Shown here piece after piece: positions 11,631-38,003 of a stretch of 64,000 nucleotides of DNA. The translations under genes and the position numbers were made by a program. Positions within the stretch are counted from its first letter, which is position 1. Every line of letters begins with the position of its first letter. This DNA is from Bdellovibrio sp. NC01 (lineage in GTDB: Bacteria > Bdellovibrionota > Bdellovibrionia > Bdellovibrionales > Bdellovibrionaceae): NCBI RefSeq assembly GCF_006874625.1, contig NZ_CP030034.1:310001-374000 (forward strand), written 5' to 3'. The notes beneath the pieces are model-generated. The model did no database searches and was not told the DNA's origin. It was given only the letters and a program-made list of their open reading frames with translations.

Positions 11631-12029
11631 ATGTGCAAAACGATCAAACAAAAAATTCATTTTAAGGCGCCTCCTGACGTTATCTATAGTTTGCTTACGG
11701 ATTCTAAAAAATATGCTTCGTTGACAGGGAAGAAAGCTTCGATTGGAAAATCTGCCGGAGCGCCATTCTCAGTTTACGGCGGACAAGCGACCGGAATCAT
11801 TGTAGAGCTGGTTCGTAATAAAAGAATAGTGCAAGCTTGGCGGGGGCATAGTTTTCCTGAAGGAATTTTCTCGATGGCGACTTTTAATCTGAAGCCGACG
11901 GGTAAGCATGGGACGGAACTTGTTTTGGTTCATCGGGGAGTGCCGAAAGAAATGATTCCGTCGATTGAACTGGGTTGGCGTAAGTACAATTGGGATAAGA
12001 TAAAGAGTTATCTGGAAAATCACGAATGA
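11631..12029 (+). CDS. SRPBCC/AHSA1-like ligand-binding protein
   Basis: A 132-aa protein with the START-like (SRPBCC) helix-grip pattern of the AHSA1 group: IKQKIHFKAPPDVIYSLLTDSKKYASLTG near the start, then GGQATGIIVELV, KRIVQAWRG and a final helix GWRKYNWDKIKSYL. Members bind hydrophobic ligands or assist Hsp90-like proteins. The gene is preceded by GGGGG at short spacing from the ATG and stands alone. Confidence 0.8.
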   Translation: MCKTIKQKIHFKAPPDVIYSLLTDSKKYASLTGKKASIGKSAGAPFSVYGGQATGIIVELVRNKRIVQAWRGHSFPEGIFSMATFNLKPTGKHGTELVLVHRGVPKEMIPSIELGWRKYNWDKIKSYLENHE

Positions 12030-16061: not shown

Positions 16062-16241
16062 ATGCTGAAGACGCAAAGCACGAACCACAAGATAGAGGAT
16101 GAGCAAAAAAAATCATCCGAATCCGCAGTACAATCTTCGCGTCAAAGTAGCAACCGACGCGACAAATCCCTTCACTCAAGAAGACTTTCGAAAGCTTTGG
16201 AAGGTTTTGTGTGCCCTAAAAGAAAAGGGGGCCGCAAGTGA
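16062..16241 (+). CDS. Possible small basic protein coupled to the recombinase
   Basis: A 59-aa frame rich in Ser, Lys and Arg ends with the TGA of a GTGA overlap with the recombinase start at 16238. Such overlaps usually mean translational coupling, the main reason to accept it. The frame is open further upstream to 15918, but no start has a good ribosome site. It resembles no family I recognise. The high Lys/Arg content would suit nucleic-acid binding, but composition alone is weak evidence. Confidence 0.35.
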   Translation: MLKTQSTNHKIEDEQKKSSESAVQSSRQSSNRRDKSLHSRRLSKALEGFVCPKRKGGRK

Positions 16242-17896
16242 AACCTAAAATGGCTCCATACTTCCGAGTATCTACCCTGGGACAGAAAGAAGACGACACA
16301 GTTCAACGTCAAATCATGACGTTTGAATTACAATGGACGGTACTTTCAAAGTCCTTCGATTTGTACGAGCGTATTCCTGGTGGCAAGCAGGAGGATCAGT
16401 ACTTTAAGGACGAGGGTTATAATCTTGAAGAGTGGAAGTCGGATACCGATTTTCATCGTTTAATGACTTTGATTCAAACCGAAGGAGTAGATGCGATCTA
16501 TGTCGATGAGGAGAATCGTCTGTTCCGTGCTCGTTCCCGTGAGTTTCGCGGACGTGTTCTTGATCTTATCGAACAGAATGGTGTGCGTGTTATCACAAAG
16601 AACGGTGAAGTATCCACTGGTTCGTTAGCGATGGAGATTGTATCTGCCGTGGGTGCTGATGATAAGCGCGCTATGCTTCGAAAATGTCATGAAGCCAAAA
16701 TCACGCGTTTGACGTCGGAAGGAAGGCCGCCAACAGGCAGGGCTCCCTTTGGCTTGAACTGGAATAAGAAAGAAAAGAAATGGGAGCTTGTGCCCGAAGA
16801 GGCCCGAATCATTCGCTGCGCGGTAGGTCTTTCGATTGGTAAGATTTACGATGATATGCCCGATAGCATGAAAGGTTTGATTGAATTGAGTCCTGGTGGA
16901 GTGCCAGATAAAGAAGTCGCTAGCGCTCTTACGAGTGCGGGCTTTACAAAAAGAATTACCAAGCGATCAATTAGCCACGGTATCGATTACAGTGGTGTTA
17001 AAGCCATTTTTGCTTCAGATACGTGCCGTGGAAAAATCATTTTTAAATTAAAGAAAGCTGATCAGGTAGGAAATCCGAAGTTTAAAAATGGCAACGAACA
17101 GAGAGTAACATACGAAGTTGGCGTGCCCAGAATCTTGTCCGATGAGGACTGGGAAAATCTTTGCTTCAAGCGAAATCAAAGAAGAAAATGGGCGAGGCGA
17201 AATGTTCAACATGAATATCTTTGTAAAGATCTTCTTGTCTGCTCAGCATGTGGCATACCTTTAGCTGCTCGCCCAAAGGACACAGAAAGGTTTTTAAAAC
17301 GCGAAAAACGCTTGGTCCATTATCCGCCGACTCTCTACTACACTTGTGCACGAAAACAGAAAACGAGCGGATTTAGATGTTCTGCGAACAAGTGTCACAG
17401 CTCTAAGGTTATTGATGCACTTGTTTGGAATGAAATCGTCCGCCTCCTGACTGAACCTGAATTTTTACCTTCAAGAGCAAACAACTTGGAGCAAGAAGAC
17501 CAAATTCAAAAAAGGAAAGAAAGTTTATCTTCTGCGAAAACAGGCTTGTCTAATGATCTAACCCGATTGAAGGAGATTTCTAAGAATCTCGCCAGGCGTT
17601 TAGGCAAGGGGCTGTTGAGTGAGGAGCAATTTTTAATTGCAAACTCAGAGAATTTGCAAGAGCAGAAGAGAATTACGGAGTATCTTCACTCTGCAGAGGA
17701 AGAGCTCAAGAGCTTCAATGATAGCAACGAAAAGATTGATTTTAATGTCCTCATCGAATCTATTAAAAATCAATTGCCGCTATCGAACTTTGAAGATCGT
17801 CGCAACGTGCTAAAATCGCTAGTTTCATGTATAAGAATTGAACCTTGCGGGCAGATCACTTTATTACTTAAGCATGGACTTCAATTTGATATCTAA
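16238..17896 (+). CDS. Large serine recombinase
   Basis: A 552-aa site-specific recombinase starting at a GTG. The N-terminal resolvase domain shows YFRVSTLGQ with the nucleophilic serine near residue 10 and EENRLFRARSREFRGRVLDLI. It is followed by the recombinase domain (GRPPTGRAPFGLNW near 163) and a zinc ribbon with CSACG near 334 and paired cysteines around CARKQKTSGFRCSANKC. A coiled coil (about 420-505) follows. This is the layout of large serine integrases, which cut and join attachment sites. It stands at the left end of the island beside a long palindrome and is the best candidate for moving the left module. Confidence 0.9.
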   Translation: MKPKMAPYFRVSTLGQKEDDTVQRQIMTFELQWTVLSKSFDLYERIPGGKQEDQYFKDEGYNLEEWKSDTDFHRLMTLIQTEGVDAIYVDEENRLFRARSREFRGRVLDLIEQNGVRVITKNGEVSTGSLAMEIVSAVGADDKRAMLRKCHEAKITRLTSEGRPPTGRAPFGLNWNKKEKKWELVPEEARIIRCAVGLSIGKIYDDMPDSMKGLIELSPGGVPDKEVASALTSAGFTKRITKRSISHGIDYSGVKAIFASDTCRGKIIFKLKKADQVGNPKFKNGNEQRVTYEVGVPRILSDEDWENLCFKRNQRRKWARRNVQHEYLCKDLLVCSACGIPLAARPKDTERFLKREKRLVHYPPTLYYTCARKQKTSGFRCSANKCHSSKVIDALVWNEIVRLLTEPEFLPSRANNLEQEDQIQKRKESLSSAKTGLSNDLTRLKEISKNLARRLGKGLLSEEQFLIANSENLQEQKRITEYLHSAEEELKSFNDSNEKIDFNVLIESIKNQLPLSNFEDRRNVLKSLVSCIRIEPCGQITLLLKHGLQFDI

Positions 17897-17929: not shown

Positions 17930-18874
17930 ATGAATGCTCATAAAAACTTCTTGCAAAAGCTAGGGTTGAAAAGCGATTACTGCGCTCTTTGTCAGGAATC
18001 CAACGTCCTTGAGGTTAGTCATATTATTCCTGCGTTTGTTGTTAAATGGAAGAAGGATACATCTGCAACTGGATTTTTGCGCAGCGGAGAAAGTCCAAAT
18101 CGAAGAGTGCAAGATGGTGCGAAAATTCCGCTGTTATGTAGACAATGCGAACAGCTTTTTTCTCGTTGGGAAAGTGAATTTGCCGCTAAGGTATTCCATC
18201 CCTATGTTAAGGAAGAACTTTCTGAAAATGCTGTCGCTCAGCTGATTGTGAATGAAATCGAATATGATTCGTGGCTTTTAAAGTTTTGTCTGTCATTGCA
18301 ATGGAGAGGACTTATTTCCACCTATGAAAGTGAAGAGCTGCCTGCAAATCAATTCGAGGAAATCAAAAAAGCCATTTCGGTTTGGAGAGATTTTCTTCTT
18401 GGACGCCGTGAAACAACTGGAGAGTGGCGCTCTTATATATTCTTCTTGCAAAATGTAGCGGAGGGAGAAGGGCGCCTCCCTGCTCATGCTCCAGTAAATA
18501 TTAATCATTATGTTTTAAGAGCCTCGGAAATTACGATTCTGGATAACCCTAAAAAGTTAATTGGTTACGCAAAAATCGGCCCAATTTTAATATATACAGC
18601 AATGATTCCGAACGAATTCAAATATCACAAGGAATATCAAGTTCGCCTAAAAGGAAAACTTAAAACAGGAACTTCCATTCATGACCCTGAGTTTGGGAAA
18701 TATCTTCTTATTGATCGGCCTAAAGAATTATTAAAAGAAATGGAAATGTCAGACCGCCAATGGCAGCTCATTCAAGCTGATTATGCTAAGAATCCTGATC
18801 GAGTTGCAAAATCGCTTACAAAAATTGCCTCAGATGCCGACTTCAAAGTTCAGCAGGATAAGCTAAAGAAATAG
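17930..18874 (+). CDS. HNH-like zinc protein of unknown function
   Basis: A 314-aa protein with CALC near residue 18, SHIIP near residue 30 and CRQC near residue 70. This Cys-Cys/His/Cys-Cys spacing is seen in a common group of uncharacterised HNH-like proteins often found near defence or mobile genes. The remaining 230 residues have no motif I recognise. It begins 33 bases after the recombinase with an AAGGAAAA site, and the Gabija-type operon follows after 112 bases. It may be a nuclease; the catalytic residues of a classical HNH are not all visible. Confidence 0.6.
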   Translation: MNAHKNFLQKLGLKSDYCALCQESNVLEVSHIIPAFVVKWKKDTSATGFLRSGESPNRRVQDGAKIPLLCRQCEQLFSRWESEFAAKVFHPYVKEELSENAVAQLIVNEIEYDSWLLKFCLSLQWRGLISTYESEELPANQFEEIKKAISVWRDFLLGRRETTGEWRSYIFFLQNVAEGEGRLPAHAPVNINHYVLRASEITILDNPKKLIGYAKIGPILIYTAMIPNEFKYHKEYQVRLKGKLKTGTSIHDPEFGKYLLIDRPKELLKEMEMSDRQWQLIQADYAKNPDRVAKSLTKIASDADFKVQQDKLKK

Positions 18875-18986: not shown

Positions 18987-20741
18987 TTGCTTCTTCATAA
19001 AGTGCATATAAAAGGGTTTAGGAATTTTAAAGATTGTGAAATTAACTTAAACGAGAAGTCATTAGTCATCGGGCCGAACGACATTGGGAAATCAAATTTT
19101 TTATACGCACTCAGATTACTTTTGGATAAAGGGTTGTCAGAGCTCGCTTTGGAGCTTGATGACTCAGATTTTTATGTCTTCGAAGACACTGCTACAGCAT
19201 CAATTACACTATACTTCAAAGATGTCGATGAGGAAGTTCTGTTATCTAAATTAAGAGGTAATGTTGCGGAGGGAAAGTTTGTCATTCGATACGAAGGATA
19301 TCGAGATGTGCCAGAAACTCCATATCGTATATTTATCGGGGCAGATGAAGAAAAATTTGAGGAGATTGAGACTAGGAATTATTTGCGATTTCTCAATCTT
19401 AAATTCATTAATAGCTATAGAGACCTGCAAACATATATTTCTAGAGAGCGCAAAAAACTTCTTCAAAGAGCAAAAGAAGGACGTAACGCTACCGAAATAA
19501 AAAGTGATGATGCTTCAATAGATAAAATTCAAAAATCATTGATACAGGTCAATGATGCAATTAGCAGTTTGAGCTACATTTCATCAGCTACGAAAGATCT
19601 GAACAAAGAGCTCTCGTCTCTATCAGAGCATCATAGTACTAATGAAGTAGTTTTCGATCCTAAAACGGCTGACACAAAGAAATTTGTTGAGAACCTAAGT
19701 CTTGCCGCAAAAGTTGATGGAAAAGTGGTTAACCTCGGTGGCGACGGAAGAAACAATCAGGTTTTCTTAGCTCTGTGGGCAAACTCTCTTACGCAAGAAT
19801 CTGTTGATTCTGTTCAGGTTTCCATCTTCTGTATAGAGGAGCCAGAAGCCCATCTGCACCCTCATCAGCAACGAAAGCTCGCCAGATACCTGGTTGAAAA
19901 ACTAGATGGTCAAGTTTTGATAACGTCACACTCTCCGCAAATTGTATCTGAGTTTAAAGCAGACTCCATAGTCAGTCTGTTTAACGCAGGACCAGCAACG
20001 GAAGCTGCAGATGATGGATGCTCTAGAAAGTTTAAAAATGCAGTTATGGAACTGGGGTATCGCTTAAATACGATCAACTGTGAATCTTTCTTTTCCTCTG
20101 CCGTATTACTGGTGGAGGGGATGTCTGAAGTATCTTTCTATAGAGCTCTTGCCAAGGAAAAGAAAATTGATCTTGATCGTCTGAACATGGCAATAGTTTC
20201 TGTCGAGGGACTCAGTTTCAGTCAGTATATTAAAATTTATGAACACCTAAATATTCCTTGGGTTCTTAGAACGGATTTTGATTTTTTTAAGAACAAAGGA
20301 AAGAAGACTTATCGATGCGCTGGATTGCAAAGGGCTTACTCGCTTTATACTAATGTTTATGTAGAAAATAAAGAATTGAACGAATTGTTCGATAAAGTTT
20401 CTAACACTATAAAGAATCTCCCCACTCCAGAAGTGCCAGACAATATGTTGGATCAAATCGCAGAAATTCGTCAGTCTCTAAGGAAAGGAAATATATTTTT
20501 GAGCTCTGAAAACTTGGAGCTGGATCTAATAAACAGTGAGATTAATGAAGACCTGCTTGAATATCACGAAGTCGATAACGACGAGGATCTTTTGATAAGT
20601 ATGCAGGAAAGAAAAGCTTCAGAAATGTTCAATTTTCTATCCGAGAAAAGCGAGAGCCTTAAGAAGATCAAAGCGGAAGTCTTACTAGCCCCACTTCTGA
20701 CATGCAAAAAAATTATTGAGGATAAAAATGGTGGTGATTAA
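18987..20741 (+). CDS. gajA: Gabija GajA-like OLD-family ATPase/TOPRIM nuclease
   Basis: A 584-aa protein from a TTG start with a GGGAG site. The N-terminal ABC-type ATPase has the P-loop GPNDIGKS at residues 29-36 and a Walker B IEEPEAHLHP near 283-292, followed by ITSHSPQ. The C-terminal TOPRIM domain has LLVEGMSEVSFY with the catalytic Glu near 377 and a DFD motif in RTDFDFF near 430. Length and domain order match GajA of the Gabija anti-phage system, where it is a sequence-sensitive DNA nicking enzyme held in check by nucleotides. It overlaps the UvrD-like helicase by 14 bases. Other OLD-type nucleases are possible, but the helicase partner favours Gabija. Confidence 0.8.
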   Translation: MLLHKVHIKGFRNFKDCEINLNEKSLVIGPNDIGKSNFLYALRLLLDKGLSELALELDDSDFYVFEDTATASITLYFKDVDEEVLLSKLRGNVAEGKFVIRYEGYRDVPETPYRIFIGADEEKFEEIETRNYLRFLNLKFINSYRDLQTYISRERKKLLQRAKEGRNATEIKSDDASIDKIQKSLIQVNDAISSLSYISSATKDLNKELSSLSEHHSTNEVVFDPKTADTKKFVENLSLAAKVDGKVVNLGGDGRNNQVFLALWANSLTQESVDSVQVSIFCIEEPEAHLHPHQQRKLARYLVEKLDGQVLITSHSPQIVSEFKADSIVSLFNAGPATEAADDGCSRKFKNAVMELGYRLNTINCESFFSSAVLLVEGMSEVSFYRALAKEKKIDLDRLNMAIVSVEGLSFSQYIKIYEHLNIPWVLRTDFDFFKNKGKKTYRCAGLQRAYSLYTNVYVENKELNELFDKVSNTIKNLPTPEVPDNMLDQIAEIRQSLRKGNIFLSSENLELDLINSEINEDLLEYHEVDNDEDLLISMQERKASEMFNFLSEKSESLKKIKAEVLLAPLLTCKKIIEDKNGGD

Positions 20742-22374
20742 GAAAGATCCCACACCACAGCAAATCAAAATTCTTGAAGAAAACGGAAACTGTGCGGTAA
20801 TTGCATCTCCCGGGAGCGGAAAGACTTTTACTATCTCTAGGAAGATTGGAGATATCGTCAGCACCCTACCGTGGTACAAGGGAATCATTGCGATATCATA
20901 CACAAATAAGGCCAGCGATGAACTTAAACATAGAGCTCTTAAAATGTCATCCGACGTTAAGAATAGCTTCTTCGGAACGATAGACTCATTTTTTGTCGGT
21001 GAGATCATTATGCCGTTCATGCGGCAAATGTTTGGAAATGCTACAACTGAAATCAAATTTGTTAAAATAGCGGAATCAGCTTTTTTCGAAGAGTTCGGTA
21101 CTGCGCTTGAGGTGATGGAGCAATCAAAATCCCTTACTCAAGATGACTTTAATACCCTTAGGACCTTATATTTAACCGGAGAGATAATTTTAGAACTTTT
21201 CGGAAAGTTAGCTTTATATTTGTTGAAGATAAATCCGTCCGTTTCTTTATACCTACGGTCTCGATTTACTCACATTTTTATAGACGAATATCAAGACTGC
21301 GGATGGGATCAACATCGGTTCTTCATTGAGTGTGTTGAACTTGGCATCATTGGAGTTGCTGTAGGCGATTTGAATCAATCTATATACGCCTTTTCAAAAA
21401 AAGATCCGGCATACTTAAACAGCTTAACTACGAATGGTTCGTTTAAAACTTATCCGCTTGATGTTAACCATAGATGTCACAAAAGCATTGCAAACTATGC
21501 AACTAAGTTTCTTAATCCAACCGTTATTGGATTGCCAACAGTGGATGAAATTCGTGTATTTTTGCGTGAGCTTGATGGCGATGAAAAACAAATTGGAGAA
21601 TGGATCTCTGATGCTATTCCAAGAATTCAGAAGAAATTCGGAATCGAAAACAATTCTGATTTCGCGATTTTATCTAGAAACAACGCAAGTCTTGCAAGAG
21701 TTCGACAACATATCACACAAGATACATTTCTTCCTGAAGAAACTCCGTTGGATAAATACAATATAAAATGGTGTTTATTTTTTAAAAGGTTGATTACTTA
21801 TCTCCTAAATGGAGATATTTCCGCTTTAGATCTTTTGGAGGATTATCTTTCTAATGATGACAATGGAGTTTTCTTCTCTCGTCTGTGTTCGGAACTCCTC
21901 TTGTTAAAGAACCAGATAGCCCTAGATCCGCAAAATTTGGTTACTTATCTCGATCAACTTGTTTCATTCGCCGTACAAATTCTGCCCAATGATAAAAGCA
22001 AAAAGGCAGTGGAACAACTTCAGCAGACAGTATCGACAGAAATTTACCTAAGCTCATTTATTCCTCCAAATAAAGATCAGGTTCAATTAATGACCTTGCA
22101 TAAATCAAAAGGTCTCGAGTTTAGAGTCGTTTTCCATTTGGATTTATACGATTGGGTAATGCCTGGTTTCAAATGGATGAAGGAACAGGACCAAAAGGAA
22201 CTAGTGCAAGATAAAAACTTGCACTATGTGGGAATTACGAGGGCTAAGGACATTGTAATTTTCTGTGTAGGTAACAAAAGATATAACGCCAAAAATCAAC
22301 AGCAAGATGGCAAGAGATCGCAATTTTTAGGACAAAATCACTTATTAGGCTATTTTAAATCAATCAAATCATAG
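20728..22374 (+). CDS. gajB: Gabija GajB-like UvrD/Rep helicase
   Basis: The ATG at 20728 has GAGG seven bases upstream and gives 548 aa. Superfamily 1A motifs are in order: PTPQQIKIL (Q motif), ASPGSGKTF (Walker A), SYTNKASDELKHR (Ia), DEYQD (II), GDLNQSIYAF (III), NHRC (IV), LMTLHKSKGLEF (V) and YVGITRAKD (VI). Gabija GajB senses DNA ends or nucleotide depletion and activates GajA. It overlaps gajA and is followed after 12 bases by the hydrolase gene, so all three are likely one operon. It is slightly longer than typical GajB. Confidence 0.85.
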   Translation: MVVIKKDPTPQQIKILEENGNCAVIASPGSGKTFTISRKIGDIVSTLPWYKGIIAISYTNKASDELKHRALKMSSDVKNSFFGTIDSFFVGEIIMPFMRQMFGNATTEIKFVKIAESAFFEEFGTALEVMEQSKSLTQDDFNTLRTLYLTGEIILELFGKLALYLLKINPSVSLYLRSRFTHIFIDEYQDCGWDQHRFFIECVELGIIGVAVGDLNQSIYAFSKKDPAYLNSLTTNGSFKTYPLDVNHRCHKSIANYATKFLNPTVIGLPTVDEIRVFLRELDGDEKQIGEWISDAIPRIQKKFGIENNSDFAILSRNNASLARVRQHITQDTFLPEETPLDKYNIKWCLFFKRLITYLLNGDISALDLLEDYLSNDDNGVFFSRLCSELLLLKNQIALDPQNLVTYLDQLVSFAVQILPNDKSKKAVEQLQQTVSTEIYLSSFIPPNKDQVQLMTLHKSKGLEFRVVFHLDLYDWVMPGFKWMKEQDQKELVQDKNLHYVGITRAKDIVIFCVGNKRYNAKNQQQDGKRSQFLGQNHLLGYFKSIKS

Positions 22375-22386
22375 TTTCGGATAAAT

Positions 22387-23598
22387 ATGAAATCAGGAAA
22401 GATTTTACCGCATGAACGGATTCAGTTTGCCACTGGTCAAGGCGCATTCCACGGAGGAACAATATTCTTTCCTAACGAACCAATGAGATGGATATATGAC
22501 ATTGGAAGTAGATCTTTGGGAGGTCAGAGTAAACTTGCCTCAGCTATTGACCGATTCATGCGTCCTCGTATGTTCCCAGCGATAACTAATAATACCGTGG
22601 ATGTGGTCTTTATTTCTCACTTTGATCAAGATCACGTTAATGGAATCCCACTTCTCAAGAAAAAAGGTATTTCCGTCAAAGAATTTGTTATTCCAGCTCT
22701 AAATGATCAAGAGCGCATAATTTCTTTGGTGGACTTTACAATCGGCAGTAGAGCCGCTGAAAATCTACTTCCGTTCTTTTTAGACCCTCAAACGTGGTTA
22801 AAAGAAACTTTTGGCGCTGACACCGTAGTTCGACAAGTGGAACCTATGAACTCAGAGAGAACGCCTTTATTTGAAGAGCCGCTATTAGAGAATACGGAGG
22901 ATACCTTTTCCACCGATCGTCCTCATCTAGAATGGCCGGAATCTGGAATAAATCCCACAATGCATTCAGGAAGCGAAGGAGTTTTATCTTTGGGGCCAGC
23001 TGGAGGCAGAATTTCCTTTAGGCCTTTTTATTTCAAACAAGATCTTTTTCATCCGCAAGATTTCATGAAAGCATGTCAGCTGCATTTTGGAACTACAAAC
23101 TGCGAGGATATTTTAAACGATTTGAAGAATGGCAACTCCTTTGAGAAGGTACGTAAAGATCTTCGCGGCTTACAAAAGGTGATTGCTGGAAATGTGAATC
23201 GCAGCTCATTATGCCTGTTGATTAACTACCATGTGAAAAGTAGATATTCTTATCTCAGTTGTTTGGGCGGAAATTTCTCTTTTAGCAAAGTGGATCATGT
23301 TGACTGGATAGGCACGGGAGACGTTGATCTTAAACATGGTCTCACAAAAACAAATTTCTATAACACAATCAGGCCAACTGTTGATCGAATCATTACTTTT
23401 CAAATACCCCATCATGGGTCAGGTAAGAATTTTGATATTCAAGATCTTAAAGTTCTTCAGAATGTCAAAAATTTCGTAGTGCCATACGGGACAACAAATG
23501 GCTACGGACACCCATCTTCAGCAATCAAGGGAATTCCAAACTTACAGGAAGTAACCGAGCTTTCTCGTGACTTTATCGAGGCATTCCTTCTGACCTAA
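22387..23598 (+). CDS. ComEC-type metallo-beta-lactamase-fold hydrolase linked to Gabija
   Basis: A 403-aa protein with metal-binding motif SHFDQDHVNG near residues 77-86 (the H-x-D-x-D-H form seen in ComEC), then IPHHGSG near 338 and GYGHPSS near 377. These are the signature motifs of ComEC-like metallo-beta-lactamase domains that degrade DNA or cleave phosphodiesters. It has no membrane part. It starts 12 bases after the helicase stop and shares its strand, which suggests a third operon member. Standard Gabija has two genes, so the role is open: accessory nuclease, nucleotide hydrolase or regulator. Confidence 0.75.
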   Translation: MKSGKILPHERIQFATGQGAFHGGTIFFPNEPMRWIYDIGSRSLGGQSKLASAIDRFMRPRMFPAITNNTVDVVFISHFDQDHVNGIPLLKKKGISVKEFVIPALNDQERIISLVDFTIGSRAAENLLPFFLDPQTWLKETFGADTVVRQVEPMNSERTPLFEEPLLENTEDTFSTDRPHLEWPESGINPTMHSGSEGVLSLGPAGGRISFRPFYFKQDLFHPQDFMKACQLHFGTTNCEDILNDLKNGNSFEKVRKDLRGLQKVIAGNVNRSSLCLLINYHVKSRYSYLSCLGGNFSFSKVDHVDWIGTGDVDLKHGLTKTNFYNTIRPTVDRIITFQIPHHGSGKNFDIQDLKVLQNVKNFVVPYGTTNGYGHPSSAIKGIPNLQEVTELSRDFIEAFLLT

Positions 23599-23643
23599 AT
23601 AAAAAATCATTATCCAAAGAGATCACTAAGATGCCTTCGCATC

Positions 23644-23716
23644 TTTAAATCCAAATGAAAGCGGAACCAATGATAGTCAGTCGTACGTCTATCAGGACCG
23701 CTGTATTGGATTTAAA
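23644..23716 (+). repeat. Long imperfect inverted repeat between the two island modules
   Basis: TTTAAATCCAA at 23644-23654 is the exact reverse complement of TTGGATTTAAA at 23706-23716. Inside, AGCGG (23660-23664) pairs with CCGCT (23698-23702) and GATAG (23672-23676) with CTATC (23689-23693). The result is a three-step 73-base hairpin just after the hydrolase gene and before the excisionase-like gene. There is no T-run on the plus strand. It could be a recombination site, a structured RNA or an unusual terminator. Confidence 0.6.
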
Positions 23717-23810
23717 AAAATAGTTTCCTGAGCAATGCAGCATGCGGAGGTGCTGACGACTAAAACCTATAGGGGAAAGATTTTTTTCCCTCCACATCAA
23801 GGAGGACGAC

Positions 23811-24029
23811 ATGTCTCAAGATCTTAGTGTCAAAGAAGCCGCCGCAGAAATTAACGTTTCCGCAGCAAAAGTTAGAGCGCTTATCCGCACCGGAGAAATC
23901 GCCGCTTATCGCCCAGGCAAGCGCAGTTATCGCGTTACGCGTGAAGCCTTGGAGACTTACAAAGCGCTCAAGCACAGCGCTCTCAAGCTTGAGATCAGGG
24001 CAAGTAAGGATGATCAAGCGTCAGCGTAG
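23811..24029 (+). CDS. Excisionase-like helix-turn-helix protein
   Basis: A 72-aa protein with the MerR-like winged-helix pattern of the excisionase family: LSVKEAAAEINVSAAKVRALIRTGEIAAYRPGKRSYRV (shown here only as the region at residues 4-42), then a helix ETYKAL. Such proteins bend DNA and steer recombinases toward excision. A strong AAGGAGG site precedes the ATG; CCTCC just upstream could pair with it. It lies 227 bases before a tyrosine recombinase-like gene, a common integrase/excisionase pairing. Confidence 0.8.
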   Translation: MSQDLSVKEAAAEINVSAAKVRALIRTGEIAAYRPGKRSYRVTREALETYKALKHSALKLEIRASKDDQASA

Positions 24030-24059
24030 ATCAGCTTTATAAGCAATATCAGGCGCTCC

Positions 24060-24089: not shown

Positions 24090-24256
24090 TGTCGCCATAT
24101 CGTCGCAAAATCACTCAAAAAGGCCGGACCAAAAAAAATTGTGTGAGGGTCTCGAGGTGTAACTGGGGTCCAAGTTTCATTATACCGACAGTCACATTTT
24201 TTGTTTTTTCGGCCATAACGGTGTGAACGTGCGCATACATGCGCATCGGAGGCATT

Positions 24257-25963
24257 ATGACAAAATCAAACTATACGGCGGACTGGCGCGGGGGCGTAAG
24301 CGCGCTACAAGAAAAAACAGACAATCGAGAACTACTGCGATACTTGCGTATCTGTGAAAAGTGGCTTGATGCGTGCTTTGATCTTGATGACTACTCTATC
24401 GTCAACATGGAACTTGAGTTCCGTTCTTTTCTGGCAAAGCAACGCCGCGATAACGGCCAAGCTTTGAGCGCTTCCTACATCAATAACCTGATGTGGTGCT
24501 TTCGAAAAATCATTGACGAGAGCCCTAAGAAGCAATTTTTTCACGAATCCTCCGAGGCTTGGAGGCAGGTCTTCATTCAGAATAATGAAAGTGCATCCGT
24601 ATTACCGTCACCACGGGCTAAAGAGCTGTTCTTGGCTTTTATCATGACTGTCGGATGGGAAGTGAAGCCGCTGTCTTTTGATGAGCTGGCGCAGTTTAAA
24701 GCCTACCTTGTAACAAAGGACTTTGATCCCTTTGAGGGAGCACATAACTTTACCAAGCAGATCCGTTGCCACTTGAGAAAAAGAGAACTTTATGTGGAAC
24801 CAGAGGCTCAAACGTTTTCAGTACCGACAGAACTGACCTCCGTCTTTGACGACATGAAGGCCTTGGCGCTCAAAGGGCACAAAAGCACGACTAAGAAGAA
24901 AACTTTGCGGCAAGCCATGCAGGAAGACGACTTGCAGCCCATTTTAGAAAAAACATGGAAGAAAGTTTCCCGCGACTTTATCCGCTATGTGCATTTTCTT
25001 GTGGATAACAAATTTATCAAGCTGACAAACGTGGATTGGAGTAAGGCCTTCGCTACAGATGTCGTGACCGACTATCTCGATCATCGCAATCAACTCGGCG
25101 ACGGCATTACAAAAAATACGGCTGAGACATTACTTGCCTCCATTTCAAAGTGCATGGTCCTTCTCGAAAAAACTGAGCATCTTACACTCAACAGCCAAGA
25201 TATGAGCACGATGAAGCGCAATCTCTGGTCATTGAATCCAAAGCTTGTGGAGGTTTTCGACAAGAAAGGTGTTTTAGACAAACTTAGTGAAGGCCCAGGA
25301 TTGCCCTTGTATGAAGGGCTCTATCCGCAGTTTATGGAATACTTCAAGCGAGAATCTGCAAAAATCCTAAAGCTTAAAGCACAAGGTGTTGATACCTTTC
25401 GCAAACAGCGTGACCTTTTGACTTTCATCCTTGAGGTCGAATACGGATGGAGACCAAACGACCTTGTGCAGACACTGACTGTAGACTGCATCTCTGCCCA
25501 TCAAAGCAGAGATGGAAGGGATTTTTTCTTTATCAGTTACATTCCAAGCAAAACTGCTTGGCGCACTAAGGCCCCAAAGGCGTCTGCACCTTTGGCACCT
25601 TGGTATTATTCATTTTTCAAAACCTATCTTGAAGAATTGGAGAAGCGCGGGTTGAAACATCTCATTCCGACCACATCGTCCCCCAGTGCCAACAGAAGGA
25701 TGTCCACAAGAATTACGAAACTTTCTTACAAGCTCTTTAAGCAAAAGCTTGGTTCGACTTCTTATCGCAGGATTCACGCTTCGTTTTTTCAGCGTCACTC
25801 GCTGCCCGGGCTTTACCTGTTCACGGGAAGAACAGCCAAAGACAACCTGAGCCTGCAAACAGAGATCGAGTTGAAGGTTTATGCGCCCGGTGCGACCACT
25901 CCCGAAGCACTGCTTGAAGCAAGGTATGGAAGGCGTGTGAAAGACATCTTGGGCATCGAGTAA
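24257..25963 (+). CDS. Divergent tyrosine recombinase/phage integrase-like protein
   Basis: The ATG at 24257 has GGAGG five bases before it, giving 568 aa; an ATG at 24239 is in frame but unsupported. The N-terminal part looks like a SAM-like core-binding domain (LRYLRICEKWLDACFDL). The C-terminal part has WRPNDLVQTLTVDCI with the box I arginine, SYIPSKTAW with the beta-hairpin lysine, and LKVYAP with the likely nucleophilic tyrosine. The box II HxxR motif is not clear (RIHASFFQRH), so it is divergent or degenerate. It is longer than most phage integrases. With the excisionase-like gene it probably mobilises the right-hand part of the island. Confidence 0.65.
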   Translation: MTKSNYTADWRGGVSALQEKTDNRELLRYLRICEKWLDACFDLDDYSIVNMELEFRSFLAKQRRDNGQALSASYINNLMWCFRKIIDESPKKQFFHESSEAWRQVFIQNNESASVLPSPRAKELFLAFIMTVGWEVKPLSFDELAQFKAYLVTKDFDPFEGAHNFTKQIRCHLRKRELYVEPEAQTFSVPTELTSVFDDMKALALKGHKSTTKKKTLRQAMQEDDLQPILEKTWKKVSRDFIRYVHFLVDNKFIKLTNVDWSKAFATDVVTDYLDHRNQLGDGITKNTAETLLASISKCMVLLEKTEHLTLNSQDMSTMKRNLWSLNPKLVEVFDKKGVLDKLSEGPGLPLYEGLYPQFMEYFKRESAKILKLKAQGVDTFRKQRDLLTFILEVEYGWRPNDLVQTLTVDCISAHQSRDGRDFFFISYIPSKTAWRTKAPKASAPLAPWYYSFFKTYLEELEKRGLKHLIPTTSSPSANRRMSTRITKLSYKLFKQKLGSTSYRRIHASFFQRHSLPGLYLFTGRTAKDNLSLQTEIELKVYAPGATTPEALLEARYGRRVKDILGIE

Positions 25964-28827: not shown

Positions 28828-29523
28828 GTGAAAAAGAATACGTCCAACTACGGACCATATATAGACGACTACTGCAAGATTCGCATAAATACTCTTAGAA
28901 AGCTTAAGCGATATGTTGAAAACAACAGCGGCAAGTCTCTTAAGCCATTTGACTACACTCGACTTGAGATATTTCAGTTTATTCAAAAACACCTTGAGTA
29001 TTCTGTTATGGTCTTCGACGGTACCAAGCGAGACTGGCGGTTCGATAATTTGATTTTGATAATGGCAGCGGGCCTTCCTTCGATAGAGTGGCTTTCTCCG
29101 CTCATAGCCTACTTAGATAAGTACAAATCCATAGCGCTCTATGAGTTTCTGGTCTTGCTCGATAGGAAATTCTCTGGGGACTGGATTGCAGGGGAAAATC
29201 CACGAGCAAGAGTTGAGAATATGTCTGCCATCTTATCAGCCATCGAGGCTTCGAGTTCTATCGACAGTCTTCTTTCAAACGATCTATTCGACTTCGATCG
29301 AGAAAATTTCCTATTAAGCATTCGAGAGGGTATTTGCGACAAAGAGTTCACACTATACCTCTTTCTTAAGATCGATTTTATCTACAAAAGCAAGACTGAG
29401 CCCCTTGAAGGGCCAACTACCGTGAGTATCGAGAACCTTTCAAAGAAAGACCTTGCAAAACTTCACAAAGAATATGGTATCCGGCCCATCCATTTGATTA
29501 AGACTTTCGGTTCAACTCCATAA
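28828..29523 (+). CDS. Shortened paralogue of the GmrSD-like protein, lacking both catalytic regions
   Basis: A 231-aa protein from a GTG start. Residues 69-203 (DW-FDNLILIMA through FSGDW-AGE to TVSIEN) are clearly homologous to residues about 340-474 of the DUF262/DUF1524 protein at 30338-32059. It lacks the whole DUF262 domain with DGQQR. Where the full-length protein has the HNH histidine in SIEHI, this one has asparagine (SIENL), and the remaining HNH region is absent. It is therefore not a nuclease of that type. A 30-base hairpin (28771-28800) precedes the start. It may act as a decoy, regulator or partner of the full-length protein. A decayed duplicate is possible, but the frame is intact. 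Confidence 0.75.
   Translation: MKKNTSNYGPYIDDYCKIRINTLRKLKRYVENNSGKSLKPFDYTRLEIFQFIQKHLEYSVMVFDGTKRDWRFDNLILIMAAGLPSIEWLSPLIAYLDKYKSIALYEFLVLLDRKFSGDWIAGENPRARVENMSAILSAIEASSSIDSLLSNDLFDFDRENFLLSIREGICDKEFTLYLFLKIDFIYKSKTEPLEGPTTVSIENLSKKDLAKLHKEYGIRPIHLIKTFGSTP
29032..29436 (+). repeat. Diverged duplication, upstream copy
   Basis: This segment encodes the region shared with 31355-31759. Long stretches can be aligned by eye at both DNA and protein level, for example the codons for FDNLILIMA and YEFLV-LDRKFSGDW. The duplication is old because synonymous positions differ widely. Confidence 0.7.
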
Positions 29524-29535
29524 GCAAAAGCAGCT

Positions 29536-30213
29536 ATGAATAAAACAAATCAAGTAATAGATTTTATAAAAGATAGAAGCTACCAGTTCGGAACAGTTCC
29601 CTTTCTCAAGATAGCGGATAATGAACGAGCGCTCTTTGCTGTAGAAAACTACCTTCAATCATCTGACGTAGAACCTCTTATTGTTCTTGGTCCCGTAGGC
29701 TCTGGAAAAACTCACCTGGTTGGATCAGTCTTGTTTGCCCAAAAAGATGAGGGTCCACAAATCAGTCTTGATTGTCTGATTAGTTTCTGCCTTCGGCTAG
29801 GGATAATGCCCTTAGAACTCGACTGTGCAGCTATAGTAGATGCGTTTAAAACCATTTTTATCGATTGCATCGACTTCGCCTTAAGAAAAAGGGTCTCTCA
29901 GGACTGGCTAATTTTCCTTGAAGACGTTTCTAGGATGGGTTGCAAAGTTATATCTACGGTTACGGATCTTTGGGGATGGTCTCACAAAAATTTTCGAATA
30001 GTGGAAATAAGTATGTCTGTTTCCGGTAAGCAGCAATTGGCACAGTTCTTCTTCACTCAGACTTTTAGAAGAGATCCAATAACCGACGACGAACTCACTC
30101 TATGCTCAGAAGCTTCTAAGGAACGCAGCTTTCGAGCAACTCAAGGCTACATAAAGAAAGGATTCATGCTCCATGAGCTCGGAGAGAGCATAGAAATCCT
30201 CTGGAAAAAATAG
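29536..30213 (+). CDS. DnaA/Hda-like AAA+ ATPase
   Basis: A 225-aa protein with a P-loop GPVGSGKTH at residues 52-60, a Walker B-like strand TIFIDCIDF at 106-114, and a sensor-1-like strand KVISTVTDLWGW. The order and spacing resemble the DnaA/Hda/DnaC AAA+ clade, in which the P-loop reads GGVGLGKTH and Walker B reads IDDIQF; here the second acidic residue of Walker B is Cys. There is no DnaA DNA-binding domain. It starts 12 bases after the shortened paralogue and precedes the GmrSD-like gene, so the three genes look like one system. The Hda-like call is inference from motifs. Confidence 0.6.
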   Translation: MNKTNQVIDFIKDRSYQFGTVPFLKIADNERALFAVENYLQSSDVEPLIVLGPVGSGKTHLVGSVLFAQKDEGPQISLDCLISFCLRLGIMPLELDCAAIVDAFKTIFIDCIDFALRKRVSQDWLIFLEDVSRMGCKVISTVTDLWGWSHKNFRIVEISMSVSGKQQLAQFFFTQTFRRDPITDDELTLCSEASKERSFRATQGYIKKGFMLHELGESIEILWKK

Positions 30214-30277
30214 CCCCTACAGAACAACATTCATCTGGTTAAAGGTCTTAATGGAAGCTTTGTATATCCCCGAGCCG

Positions 30278-30306
30278 TTGAAAGGTCGTAACTGTTAAAA
30301 TATAAT
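30278..30306 (+). promoter_or_regulatory. Strong sigma-70-type promoter for the GmrSD-like gene
   Basis: TTGAAA at 30278-30283 and TATAAT at 30301-30306 are separated by exactly 17 bases. The -10 box is consensus and the -35 box differs in two positions. The expected start of transcription is near 30313, about 25 bases before the ATG at 30338, so the full-length protein can be made independently of the two upstream genes. Confidence 0.7.
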
Positions 30307-30337
30307 GTAAAACGAGTTTATACACCCAGAGGTACAA

Positions 30338-32059
30338 ATGATAAAAAAGGGCTCCATAGATAGCGACAAAATCAGCGTAAAAAGTATCTTTGAATTGTGG
30401 TTTCGCATTCCCGAGTATCAGAGACCTTACAGATGGGGACGTGAGCAAATAGAAACATTTCTTGAGGACGTATCTCAAGCTGCGACGCTAAATCCCGCAG
30501 GAGAATATTTCTTAGGGTCTTTCGTTTATCAAAAGAAAGCTGGCACTAGATCTCCGGTAAGTTTTGATGAAAATGACCTGTTAGACGGTCAACAACGTCT
30601 AACTACGCTGATGCTTCTTTTTGCAGTCATAAGAGACTTAACAGACAATCAGACGCGGAAAGATACCTGTCAGAAGTTTATCTATCAGCAAGCCAACCCC
30701 GATTTGCGTATTCCAGAAAGATTTCGCATTTTCTTTGAAACTAGAGACGGCGCCAGAGACTTCTTAGAAACCTTCGTTAAGAAACAAGATGCAACTTGTA
30801 ATGCTGAAGCCATTAAAGCGGAGGCAGCTAGGTCGGATGATGTAACTGTAAAGAGTATGGCTGAGGCGATTCAGACAATGACCTCCTTTTTCTCATCACC
30901 TGAGGCGCCTTCTATTGACACTTTCTTTCCATTCCTTTTGAACAACGTTTTGATGGTGTATGTCGCTACCGAGGACTTTGAAGATGCTTTCCAGCTTTTT
31001 ACTATCCTAAATAATCGGGGTTTGCCGTTAAGTCAGAGCGATATTCTTAAGGCCTGGAATCTGGGTGTTCTTCAGAACGATTTAGATAGAAAGAGATATA
31101 GCCAGTTTTGGGAAGACACTGAAAGCGAATTCGGCGAACACTTTGACAGGTTTCTATCTTACATCAGAATGTTGCTTCTTAAGGATAAAGCGCGCTTAAG
31201 TCTTCTTAAAGAATTTGAAGATCGGATTTATGGAAATGACAATAGGTCAAAAAGACCGCTCCTAAGCAAGGGGCTCGAAACCTTAAAGCTGATTGAAAAA
31301 CATCGGGAGAATTACGGCACCTTATTCTCGGGTAAGAATCAAAGTTTAGAAATGGACTGGAAGTTCGATAATTTAATTTTGATTATGGCGAACTCGCTTC
31401 CATCGACTGATTGGATTCCGCCGTTACTTGCATATTTCGATAAATATGAATTTAAGAGCATCTATGAGTTTCTGGTTATGCTTGATAGAAAATTCTCAGG
31501 CGACTGGGTGGCGGGAGAAACTCCAACCACGAGAATCGAAAATATGGCCGCTATTATTACGGCAATTGAAAAGTCCGCGTCTATAGATAGTTTGCTCTCA
31601 AGCAATATCTTTGCATTCGATCACGAAAGCTTTCTATCGAATGTTCAAGGCGACGTTTATGGTAGAAAATTTGCACGATACTTATTATTTAAACTCGATT
31701 TTTATTATAGCAGCTCGGAGGGGCCTTATCATCTGCCCGAGACAATAAGTATCGAACATATAGCACCACAAAACCCTTCAACCGACAGTCAGTGGCATAA
31801 AAACTTCTCGGAGCAAGACCGCGAGGAGTGGACCCATAAGATAGGGAACCTGATTCTGATGGGAAGAGGCAAAAACTCTTCTCTTGGAAGGCTGGATTTT
31901 GAAGATAAGATGAAAAAGTATTTCGTTAAAAATATTCAAACAAATCCAAACTCTCTGCGGATCTGGGCCAACTTCGACCAGTGGACACTTAATGATTTAA
32001 GAAAGAATCATTCAATGGTTATCGAAAGGATTCGTAAAGAATACGATATTAATGTCTAA
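30338..32059 (+). CDS. GmrSD/BrxU-like DUF262-DUF1524 protein
   Basis: A 573-aa protein. The N-terminal DUF262 domain shows IPEYQRPYRWG near residues 24-34, YFLGSFV near 57 and LLDGQQRLTTL near 81-91. The C-terminal DUF1524 HNH-like domain shows SIEHIAPQN with His near 474 and IGNLIL followed by NSSLG. In GmrSD and BrxU, DUF262 binds and hydrolyses nucleotides and DUF1524 cuts DNA with modified cytosines, giving type IV restriction. It has its own promoter and an AGAGG site. Its middle and C-terminal part is duplicated in the gene at 28828. A role against phages with modified DNA is likely but unproven. Confidence 0.8.
   Translation: MIKKGSIDSDKISVKSIFELWFRIPEYQRPYRWGREQIETFLEDVSQAATLNPAGEYFLGSFVYQKKAGTRSPVSFDENDLLDGQQRLTTLMLLFAVIRDLTDNQTRKDTCQKFIYQQANPDLRIPERFRIFFETRDGARDFLETFVKKQDATCNAEAIKAEAARSDDVTVKSMAEAIQTMTSFFSSPEAPSIDTFFPFLLNNVLMVYVATEDFEDAFQLFTILNNRGLPLSQSDILKAWNLGVLQNDLDRKRYSQFWEDTESEFGEHFDRFLSYIRMLLLKDKARLSLLKEFEDRIYGNDNRSKRPLLSKGLETLKLIEKHRENYGTLFSGKNQSLEMDWKFDNLILIMANSLPSTDWIPPLLAYFDKYEFKSIYEFLVMLDRKFSGDWVAGETPTTRIENMAAIITAIEKSASIDSLLSSNIFAFDHESFLSNVQGDVYGRKFARYLLFKLDFYYSSSEGPYHLPETISIEHIAPQNPSTDSQWHKNFSEQDREEWTHKIGNLILMGRGKNSSLGRLDFEDKMKKYFVKNIQTNPNSLRIWANFDQWTLNDLRKNHSMVIERIRKEYDINV
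31355..31759 (+). repeat. Diverged duplication, downstream copy
   Basis: This segment of the GmrSD-like gene matches 29032-29436 in the shortened paralogue. It ends at the codon for His 474, which is the point where the two proteins stop resembling each other. Confidence 0.7.
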
Positions 32060-32841: not shown

Positions 32842-33226
32842 AACGTCTCCTGCCGATCAGAAAAGATAAATGATCTTTGCAGGGGCATCTCTTGGCAACG
32901 CTTGGCACTCTGTTCTCAACGCACGAATCATTTAAACGTAAAAGTATTGTTTAAACGACCAAGACAGGGGATATCCTTCGAGGATTTCCGAGGTCTCACT
33001 TTGCTACAATACGGCCAGAAAATCCGCGTTCCGAGTCGTGCAGATCTTGCTTATAATATTCTGAATTCGTCTGGAAGCTATCGGACAATCGTCTTGTGTC
33101 CAAAAAGAATGCAAATATTTTTCTGCAATCACAAAATAGTTTAGTTATATCCGTATTACGCCGAAATCAAATCCGTAGGATTAGACGCGTGAGTTGGATG
33201 TGATCCTTTCGAATAAGGGAGTTTAT
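32842..33226. other. Regulatory intergenic region between DUF429 and the TerY-P triad
   Basis: The 385-base gap separates two divergent units. It holds copy D of the repeat element (32931-32960) and a likely plus-strand promoter with TTCCGA at 33029-33034 and TATAAT at 33052-33057, spaced by 17 bases. A reading frame at 32824-33144 crosses the region, but it has no ribosome site or recognisable protein and is not accepted. Confidence 0.5.
32931..32960 (+). promoter_or_regulatory. Island repeat element, copy D (variant)
   Basis: TTTAAACG starts at 32931 (copy A has TTTAAAGG), TGTT starts 17 bases later at 32948 and AAACGA starts 22 bases in at 32953. The palindrome GTTTAAAC is retained. The copy lies between DUF429 and the TerY-P triad. 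Confidence 0.5.
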
Positions 33227-33901
33227 ATGAATGACGATTTTTCTCAGAGGCCATTTGAACTAGTTGAGTTTGCAGAAAACTCAGAACAACGTTGTCCATG
33301 TCTGCTTTTACTGGATGTTTCTGCTTCAATGTCTGGAAGTAAAATAAATGAGCTAAATGACGGACTTATTGCATTTAAAAATGAACTGCTAGCGGACTCT
33401 CTGGCGTCTAAGCGGGTCGAAATTGGAGTTGTGACCTTTGGACCTGTTGAAGTGAAACAAGAGTTTGTTACTGTAGATCAATTTTACCCTGAGCATCTTT
33501 CACCCCAGGGCAATACCCCCATGGGAGAAGCCATAGTTCGCGGAATTAATCTTTTGCAAGAGCGAAAAGATAAATATAAAAACGCGGGAGTTAAGTATTA
33601 TCGTCCGTGGATTTTTTTGATTACGGATGGTGAACCGACGGATGCTTATCACGAAGCTGCAAGCAGAGTTCGTTCTGGCGAAGATCGCAAAGAGTTTTCA
33701 TTTTTTGCGGTTGGCGTCGAAGGAGCGAACCTTGGCACTTTATCACAAATCACTTCTCCTAATAGACCACCAGTTAAGCTTAGAGGTCTGGCGTTTAGAG
33801 AGCTATTCCAATGGCTTTCAAGCTCTTTAAAAGCCGTTTCACAGTCAAAGCCGGGCGATGTAGTGGTACTTCCTCCTAATGGATGGAGTGCGATTGACTA
33901 A
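33227..33901 (+). CDS. TerY/YegL-like vWA-domain protein
   Basis: The ATG at 33227 has a GGGAG site and gives 224 aa. The vWA fold has a full metal-ion site: D30-x-S32-x-S34 in LLDVSASMSG, the threonine in GNTPMGEA near 101, and ITDGEPTD near 140. Two cysteines (RCPC, 23 and 25) precede the first strand, as in E. coli YegL, which the whole sequence resembles closely. TerY-type vWA proteins form a phosphorylation triad with a PP2C phosphatase and a kinase. It overlaps the phosphatase gene and is the first gene of that operon. Confidence 0.85.
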   Translation: MNDDFSQRPFELVEFAENSEQRCPCLLLLDVSASMSGSKINELNDGLIAFKNELLADSLASKRVEIGVVTFGPVEVKQEFVTVDQFYPEHLSPQGNTPMGEAIVRGINLLQERKDKYKNAGVKYYRPWIFLITDGEPTDAYHEAASRVRSGEDRKEFSFFAVGVEGANLGTLSQITSPNRPPVKLRGLAFRELFQWLSSSLKAVSQSKPGDVVVLPPNGWSAID

Positions 33902-34658
33902 AGTTTTGCGCTGGGCTCTTGCCTCAAAAATAGGAACTTCTCATATTAAATTGGGAACTGAGAAGCAAGATTGGGCAAGGTGTGTCCAATTGGAAACCCA
34001 AATTGGTAAGGTTACTCTTTCGATTATTTCAGATGGCGCTGGAAGTGCCTCAATGGGTAAGCAAGGGGCAGCAATCGTTTGTTATAGCATTATTCAGAGA
34101 TTTCGAGAGTACTATAGATCTAATTCGGCAAATCCTAGTGATGAAGAATTATGGTCTTGGGTTGATAGTGCCCGAGAACTCATTAGTGCTTGCGCGATAA
34201 AAAGAAAAGCTGCTCGGCGGGATTTTTCCGCGACTCTGGTCGCTCTTATAATTACTCCTAAAGACCTCATTGTTCTTCATATCGGAGATGGAAGTGTTGT
34301 TGCTAGAAAGACAGATCAACAATGGACGGCACTTTCATGGCCAGAAACTGGTGAGTATGCGTCTACAACATACTTTCTAATAGATGATCCGTCACCAAAA
34401 TTGAAAATATCACGTTTTACAAATGAATATGATGGGTATGCCTTATTTAGTGATGGAATAGAAAATCTTGCACTTGATTTTAAAAATCAAACTCCACACC
34501 CGCCCTTTTTCAATGGTCTTTTAAGAGCTGTGGATGGAATGGCAAAAAGTGGAAAGATTGAAGGTCTATCCAAAGAACTTACCAACTTTCTAGGCAGCGA
34601 AAAAGTCAACGAGCGCACCGATGACGACAAAAGCCTAATAATTATTTCTTCAAAATGA
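33894..34658 (+). CDS. YegK-like PP2C-family protein phosphatase
   Basis: A TTG at 33894 has GGAG at good spacing and gives 254 aa, the size of E. coli YegK; an ATG at 33879 in the same frame lacks a ribosome site. PP2C motifs are visible: GTSHIKLGTEKQD near the N-terminus, ISDGAGSASMG near 49 with a metal-binding Asp, and LHIGDGSVV near 140. It would remove phosphate from Ser/Thr residues placed by the neighbouring kinase. It overlaps the vWA gene by 8 bases and the kinase by 4 (ATGA), so the three are translationally coupled. Confidence 0.8.
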   Translation: MTKVLRWALASKIGTSHIKLGTEKQDWARCVQLETQIGKVTLSIISDGAGSASMGKQGAAIVCYSIIQRFREYYRSNSANPSDEELWSWVDSARELISACAIKRKAARRDFSATLVALIITPKDLIVLHIGDGSVVARKTDQQWTALSWPETGEYASTTYFLIDDPSPKLKISRFTNEYDGYALFSDGIENLALDFKNQTPHPPFFNGLLRAVDGMAKSGKIEGLSKELTNFLGSEKVNERTDDDKSLIIISSK

Positions 34659-37912: not shown

Positions 37913-38003
37913 TGGCGGACAGAAAGAGATTCGAACTCTTGATACGCTTTTGGCGTATACTCGCGTTCCAGGCGAGCGCCTTCAACCACTCGGCCATCTG
38001 TCC
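37913..38003 (-). tRNA. tRNA-Ser (anticodon GGA)
   Basis: Read on the minus strand, the 91-base gene has acceptor stem GGACAGA paired with TCTGTCC, discriminator G and an encoded CCA. The D-arm is followed by an anticodon arm CTCGC-CTGGAAC-GCGAG, giving anticodon GGA. The long variable arm (ATACGC/GCGTAT) typical of tRNA-Ser and a T-arm with TTCGAAT follow. Its 3' end faces the island, a typical insertion site for mobile elements. I found no second copy of its 3' end at the left boundary. Confidence 0.95.

Follow-up and report, generated by a model that had tools for sequence, protein, structure and literature searches.

Is a metallo-β-lactamase (MBL)-fold hydrolase encoded directly behind a Gabija gene pair a third component of that defence system, or a separate gene that shares its operon? 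The question is raised by the window analysed here, 64,000 nucleotides of Bdellovibrio sp. NC01 (G000:C1:310001-374000, on a single 3.98 Mb contig; coordinates below are those of the window and lie on its plus strand unless stated). In it, gajA (18987-20741; 584 aa) encodes a class 2 OLD nuclease with ABC ATPase and Toprim domains, gajB (20728-22374; 548 aa) a UvrD/Rep-like SF1 helicase, and the third gene (22387-23598; 403 aa) a ComEC-type MBL-fold hydrolase. The open reading frames agree with the first-pass annotation, which had described a 14-nt overlap of gajA and gajB, a 12-nt gap between the gajB stop codon and the ATG of the MBL gene, a common strand and a third protein of 403 aa. gajA starts with a TTG at 18987, with GGGAG a few bases 5′ of it, and the better start of gajB is the ATG at 20728, which is preceded by GAGG and gives the 14-nt overlap.

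The PADLOC profiles for GajA (PDLC00066, E = 1.8e-203) and GajB (PDLC00123, E = 7.8e-175) both match, as do the PDB sequences of Endonuclease GajA (E = 3.5e-32) and GajB (E = 6.5e-33), and the two proteins align over nearly their full length with the solved Bacillus cereus counterparts. GajA keeps the Walker A residue K35 and the Toprim residues E377, G408, D430 and D432; the Toprim residues of BcGajA are E379, G409, D432 and D434 (PMC10781630). In GajB the GSGKT (Walker A) and DEYQD helicase motifs are retained. The pair therefore has the sequence features of Gabija, namely a GajA with ABC ATPase and Toprim domains carrying E, G and DxD, and an adjacent SF1 UvrD/Rep-like helicase. Gabija is further defined by a 4:4 GajA-GajB complex and by protection against phage. 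By homology, GajA and GajB would form a complex in which GajB would process phage DNA ends that are exposed or aberrant, and the DNA would be nicked by GajA. Domain make-up, gene order, overlap and the Toprim and helicase motifs are all those of other Gabija pairs, and the difference lies in the additional co-directional MBL gene 12 nt downstream, which is absent from the other loci examined. Judged by sequence, 18987-22374 is a canonical two-gene Gabija with no sign of an altered role in either protein, and the earlier assignment of an OLD-type ATPase/Toprim nuclease and a UvrD-like helicase to this system is confirmed.

The MBL gene is an intact 403-aa reading frame in which all active-site residues are kept (H78, D80, D82, H83, D312, H342 and H343). 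An alignment of its relatives displays the ComEC-type set SHFDxDH, GD and PHHGS, and the window protein carries the motif HFDQDH. Pfam MBL models match it below their cut-offs only, while a profile of the family matches ComEC chains in the PDB. An AlphaFold model (pLDDT 70, pTM 0.80) predicts one MBL fold that spans the whole length, and its best structural match is the ComEC MBL domain 9ic4 (Foldseek E = 2.3e-11; VIA Z = 21.1, with 245 of 266 residues aligned), followed by phosphorylcholine esterase as second-best fold; a viral fold library gave no significant match. Thus the SHxDxDH, GD and HHGS motifs that mark a ComEC-type MBL nuclease are located on a predicted MBL fold. Relative to the 266-residue domain of 9ic4 the protein has extra segments, among them a low-confidence loop at 157-195, and additional helices at approximately 223-266. 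Family-profile searches found no membrane-protein family or competence domain, and the MBL fold takes up the 403 residues; on these grounds we rejected a ComEC channel protein. The original description as a ComEC-type protein was borne out, its lack of a membrane part agrees with these family searches and the model, and the model and motifs suggest that the protein is most likely a soluble ComEC-type nuclease. The best PADLOC profile is the candidate PDC-M48B (E = 2.7e-7), a match that consists of short motif stretches and does not define membership.

How often, then, does such a gene follow gajB elsewhere? We compared 18 related Gabija loci that could be read beyond gajB: 10 from plasmids (Legionella, Erwinia, Staphylococcus, two from Pantoea, Cupriavidus, Kosakonia, Paraburkholderia, Enterococcus and Acinetobacter), six from viral contigs (IMG/VR), G034 from the same phylum, and G490, which was drawn from the phylum of G369, taken as Bacteroidota. 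An MBL gene follows gajB in none of them, and two MBL profiles find none there either. The result places an upper limit of about 16% (95%) on MBL-bearing Gabija, for a set that is not fully independent because the Erwinia (L013) and one of the Pantoea (L167) loci are near-identical. The closest sampled GajA/GajB lineages, those of Legionella and of G067, likewise have no MBL gene; G067, from the same phylum and beyond the 18, is readable for only about 0.4 kb after gajB, where the locus ends. In a set of 72,556 plasmids, no record is shared between the 44 that encode this type of GajB and the seven that encode the MBL. Matches to the MBL family occur in three of 369 genomes of the phylum, and only the one in the window adjoins Gabija. 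A search of genome contigs for close relatives of the MBL or GajA returned four distant MBLs, none near Gabija, and viral contigs searched with the single sequences gave no match to either. We found no report of Gabija with an MBL, ComEC or third gene in the papers searched. On the other hand, the window GajA forms a long terminal branch and its nearest sampled relative is 46% identical, and a GajA sublineage that carries the MBL may for this reason be unsampled.

The first-pass annotation had proposed a new three-gene Gabija architecture and suggested counting ComEC-like genes within 50 bases of gajB in other genomes. That count is zero in the 18 readable loci, all of which lack the MBL, and the relatives of the MBL are solitary; the proposal is not supported by this sample and rests on a single case. 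As far as sequence comparison goes, the MBL is not a conserved Gabija subunit.

Other genes were seen beside gajB in two loci. The Gabija pair of G135, a genome of the same genus, is divergent, and about 8 nt beyond it lies a 307-aa gene (L021:5964-6884, minus strand); this is a co-directional third gene after gajB, unrelated to the MBL and lacking a Pfam or PADLOC match. On the Acinetobacter plasmid pDETAB13, a gene for a trypsin-like peptidase (L166:5669-6820, minus strand) is convergent to gajB, and its product resembles the protease part of RT-Protease XI.

Where the MBL family does occur elsewhere, its members are single genes. The closest relative (G040, 35-38% identity) stands alone between convergent and divergent neighbours, and other full-length relatives are single genes in prophages and on plasmids. 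One of the family lies between a type IIG restriction-modification gene and SIR2-HerA, and in one of the prophages (cargo pair L036:3400-7260) the family member begins 124 nt after a gene for a PDC-S06 ATPase (PADLOC E = 6e-287). None was found in phages. The solitary ComEC-like cargo genes (L028-L038, L022, L175 and L176) resemble the window MBL in being full-length, in carrying the same motifs and in their similar length; they differ in that even the closest is only 35-38% identical and none adjoins Gabija. Such single-gene settings fit a stand-alone defence gene stacked beside other systems, but they do not prove that the window MBL acts independently.

The family belongs to the group of ComEC-like nucleases known from Lamassu, Hachiman, AVAST and DRT. 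Unrelated systems based on a helicase or an ATPase have repeatedly recruited such nucleases, and those of Hachiman and AVAST are gated by disordered insertions over the active site that are cut by a partner protease (PMC12799240, in which Gabija is not mentioned). With HamM, Avs1a, the LmuA hydrolase and RTasMBL (PMC12799240) the window MBL has in common the ComEC-type active site, the predicted fold, segments that the ComEC domain lacks and a defence neighbourhood, and the PADLOC profiles LmuA, RTasMBL and Avs1a give weak matches to its family. Overall similarity is low, however, and the MBL gene is situated downstream of a helicase rather than upstream of a protease fusion. Nor has it a recognised trypsin-like or caspase partner: no protease match was obtained in GajA, GajB or the other neighbouring proteins scanned. 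By analogy with the HamM and Avs1a nucleases, the low-confidence loop at 157-195 may gate the active site.

The operon is located in a variable region of about 26 kb (12039-37908) adjoining tRNA-Ser(gga) (37913-38003, minus strand). The region was delimited by synteny with G145 and G155, and genus relatives have unrelated DNA in its place: in G145 the counterpart of gene 11631-12029 directly adjoins the tRNA, and in G155 approximately 13.7 kb of other DNA occupies the site. The tRNA is an integration hotspot in the genus, and G145 and G147 have extra DNA on its other side. Pfam and PADLOC further identify a GmrSD-type restriction gene and a VWA/PP2C/kinase triad within the variable region. The full GmrSD gene is preceded, within 28828-32059, by an AAA-type protein and by a GmrSD/Orf5-like fragment that is truncated (28828-29523), and a 35-nt stretch that recurs with an 89% match (29032 and 31355) suggests partial duplication. 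The triad (33194-36793) comprises a VWA protein, a PP2C phosphatase and a Ser/Thr kinase with a C-terminal topoisomerase zinc ribbon. Nearer to the operon, the large serine recombinase predicted upstream is supported (16238-17896; 552 aa; PHROG phrog_95 integrase, E = 3.9e-37, with NCBIfam matches to CcrB and XisF both below cut-off). The HNH-like label of the next protein (17930-18874; 314 aa; phrog_26326, E = 3.4e-48) fared less well; it has a CxxC...SHIIP...CxxC motif, its HNH_2 match (E = 0.057) is below cut-off, and it represents a family without known function that is weakly HNH-like. Its identification with the SHTIP protein beside the Legionella Gabija was rejected, as the two are not homologous. 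Downstream of the operon lie a 72-aa excisionase-like helix-turn-helix protein (23812-24030; phrog_2907 excisionase, E = 1.4e-7) and a 574-aa protein (24239-25963) that matches no family and lacks a homologue in 23 other genomes of the genus.

Could the recombinase, the HNH-like gene, Gabija and the MBL form a dedicated defence transposon or cassette and move as a unit? The large serine recombinase and the excisionase-like gene are in keeping with this, and in G147 and G152, of the same genus, recombinase relatives occupy one end of islands that carry defence genes. These relatives are just 32% identical, however, and are followed by other cargo; moreover, no convincing att-like direct repeats were found around the recombinase-to-MBL block or the tRNA, and no empty site for the block was seen. 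Of the self-contained mobile unit claimed earlier, the recombinase stands and the unit is unproven, the larger region of about 26 kb being what varies; we regard such a cassette as improbable. The G147 and G152 islands (L129 and L130) adjoin gcvH, and their defence-like cargo includes SIR2-like and TIR-like genes.

We consider it fairly probable that the locus consists of a canonical Gabija and a separate, solitary defence-associated ComEC-like nuclease, co-transcribed as a result of stacking in the variable region. Established are the gene identities, the intact catalytic residues, the spacing, the predicted ComEC fold and the lack of an MBL in sampled Gabija loci. The genes gajA, gajB and that of the MBL are very probably on a common transcript, for which a structured segment at 23642-23720 (RNA fold z = −3.97; a short TTCG hairpin and a long imperfect stem; no second copy in the genome) is a possible end; promoter and terminator scans returned no more sites than shuffled sequence. 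An insertion would have put the MBL gene directly after gajB and so on the Gabija transcript, and its product would most likely act as a separate DNA nuclease. A true three-gene Gabija, with the MBL as an added effector nuclease under the control of GajAB, is unlikely by comparison. Contact with GajA or GajB upon sensing of phage DNA ends might, for example, activate it, cf. recruitment in Hachiman and AVAST. The 12-nt gap on the same strand is typical of functionally linked operons, and both the repeated recruitment of related nucleases and the weak PADLOC matches favour this reading, as does the long GajA branch, beyond which a sublineage that always has the MBL could lie. It is opposed by the lack of a second example in 18 loci and 44 plasmid records, by the missing protease domain and by MBL relatives that occur without Gabija. 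Slightly less likely still is that a rare Gabija lineage captured the nuclease as a third, Gabija-triggered and protease-free effector. Very improbable is a role for the MBL as a counter-measure or housekeeping gene linked to Gabija rather than as a weapon, e.g. as a hydrolase acting on a nucleotide or signal by which the self-toxicity of Gabija would be limited: MBL-fold enzymes include non-nucleases and phosphorylcholine esterase is the second-best fold, but ComEC is the best match by both sequence profile and fold, and the relatives occur in defence settings without Gabija.

The separate-nuclease reading, which we prefer, guards against taking one tight operon for a new Gabija architecture. 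If a third effector was indeed captured, the list of systems that have recruited ComEC-like nucleases (Hachiman, AVAST, Lamassu and DRT) would grow, and an MBL wired to Gabija would be the first ComEC-like effector for this system in the literature searched. Beyond Gabija, the analysis draws attention to solitary ComEC-like hydrolases that are related to the gated nucleases and occur in prophages and defence islands, a rare family of which little has been described.
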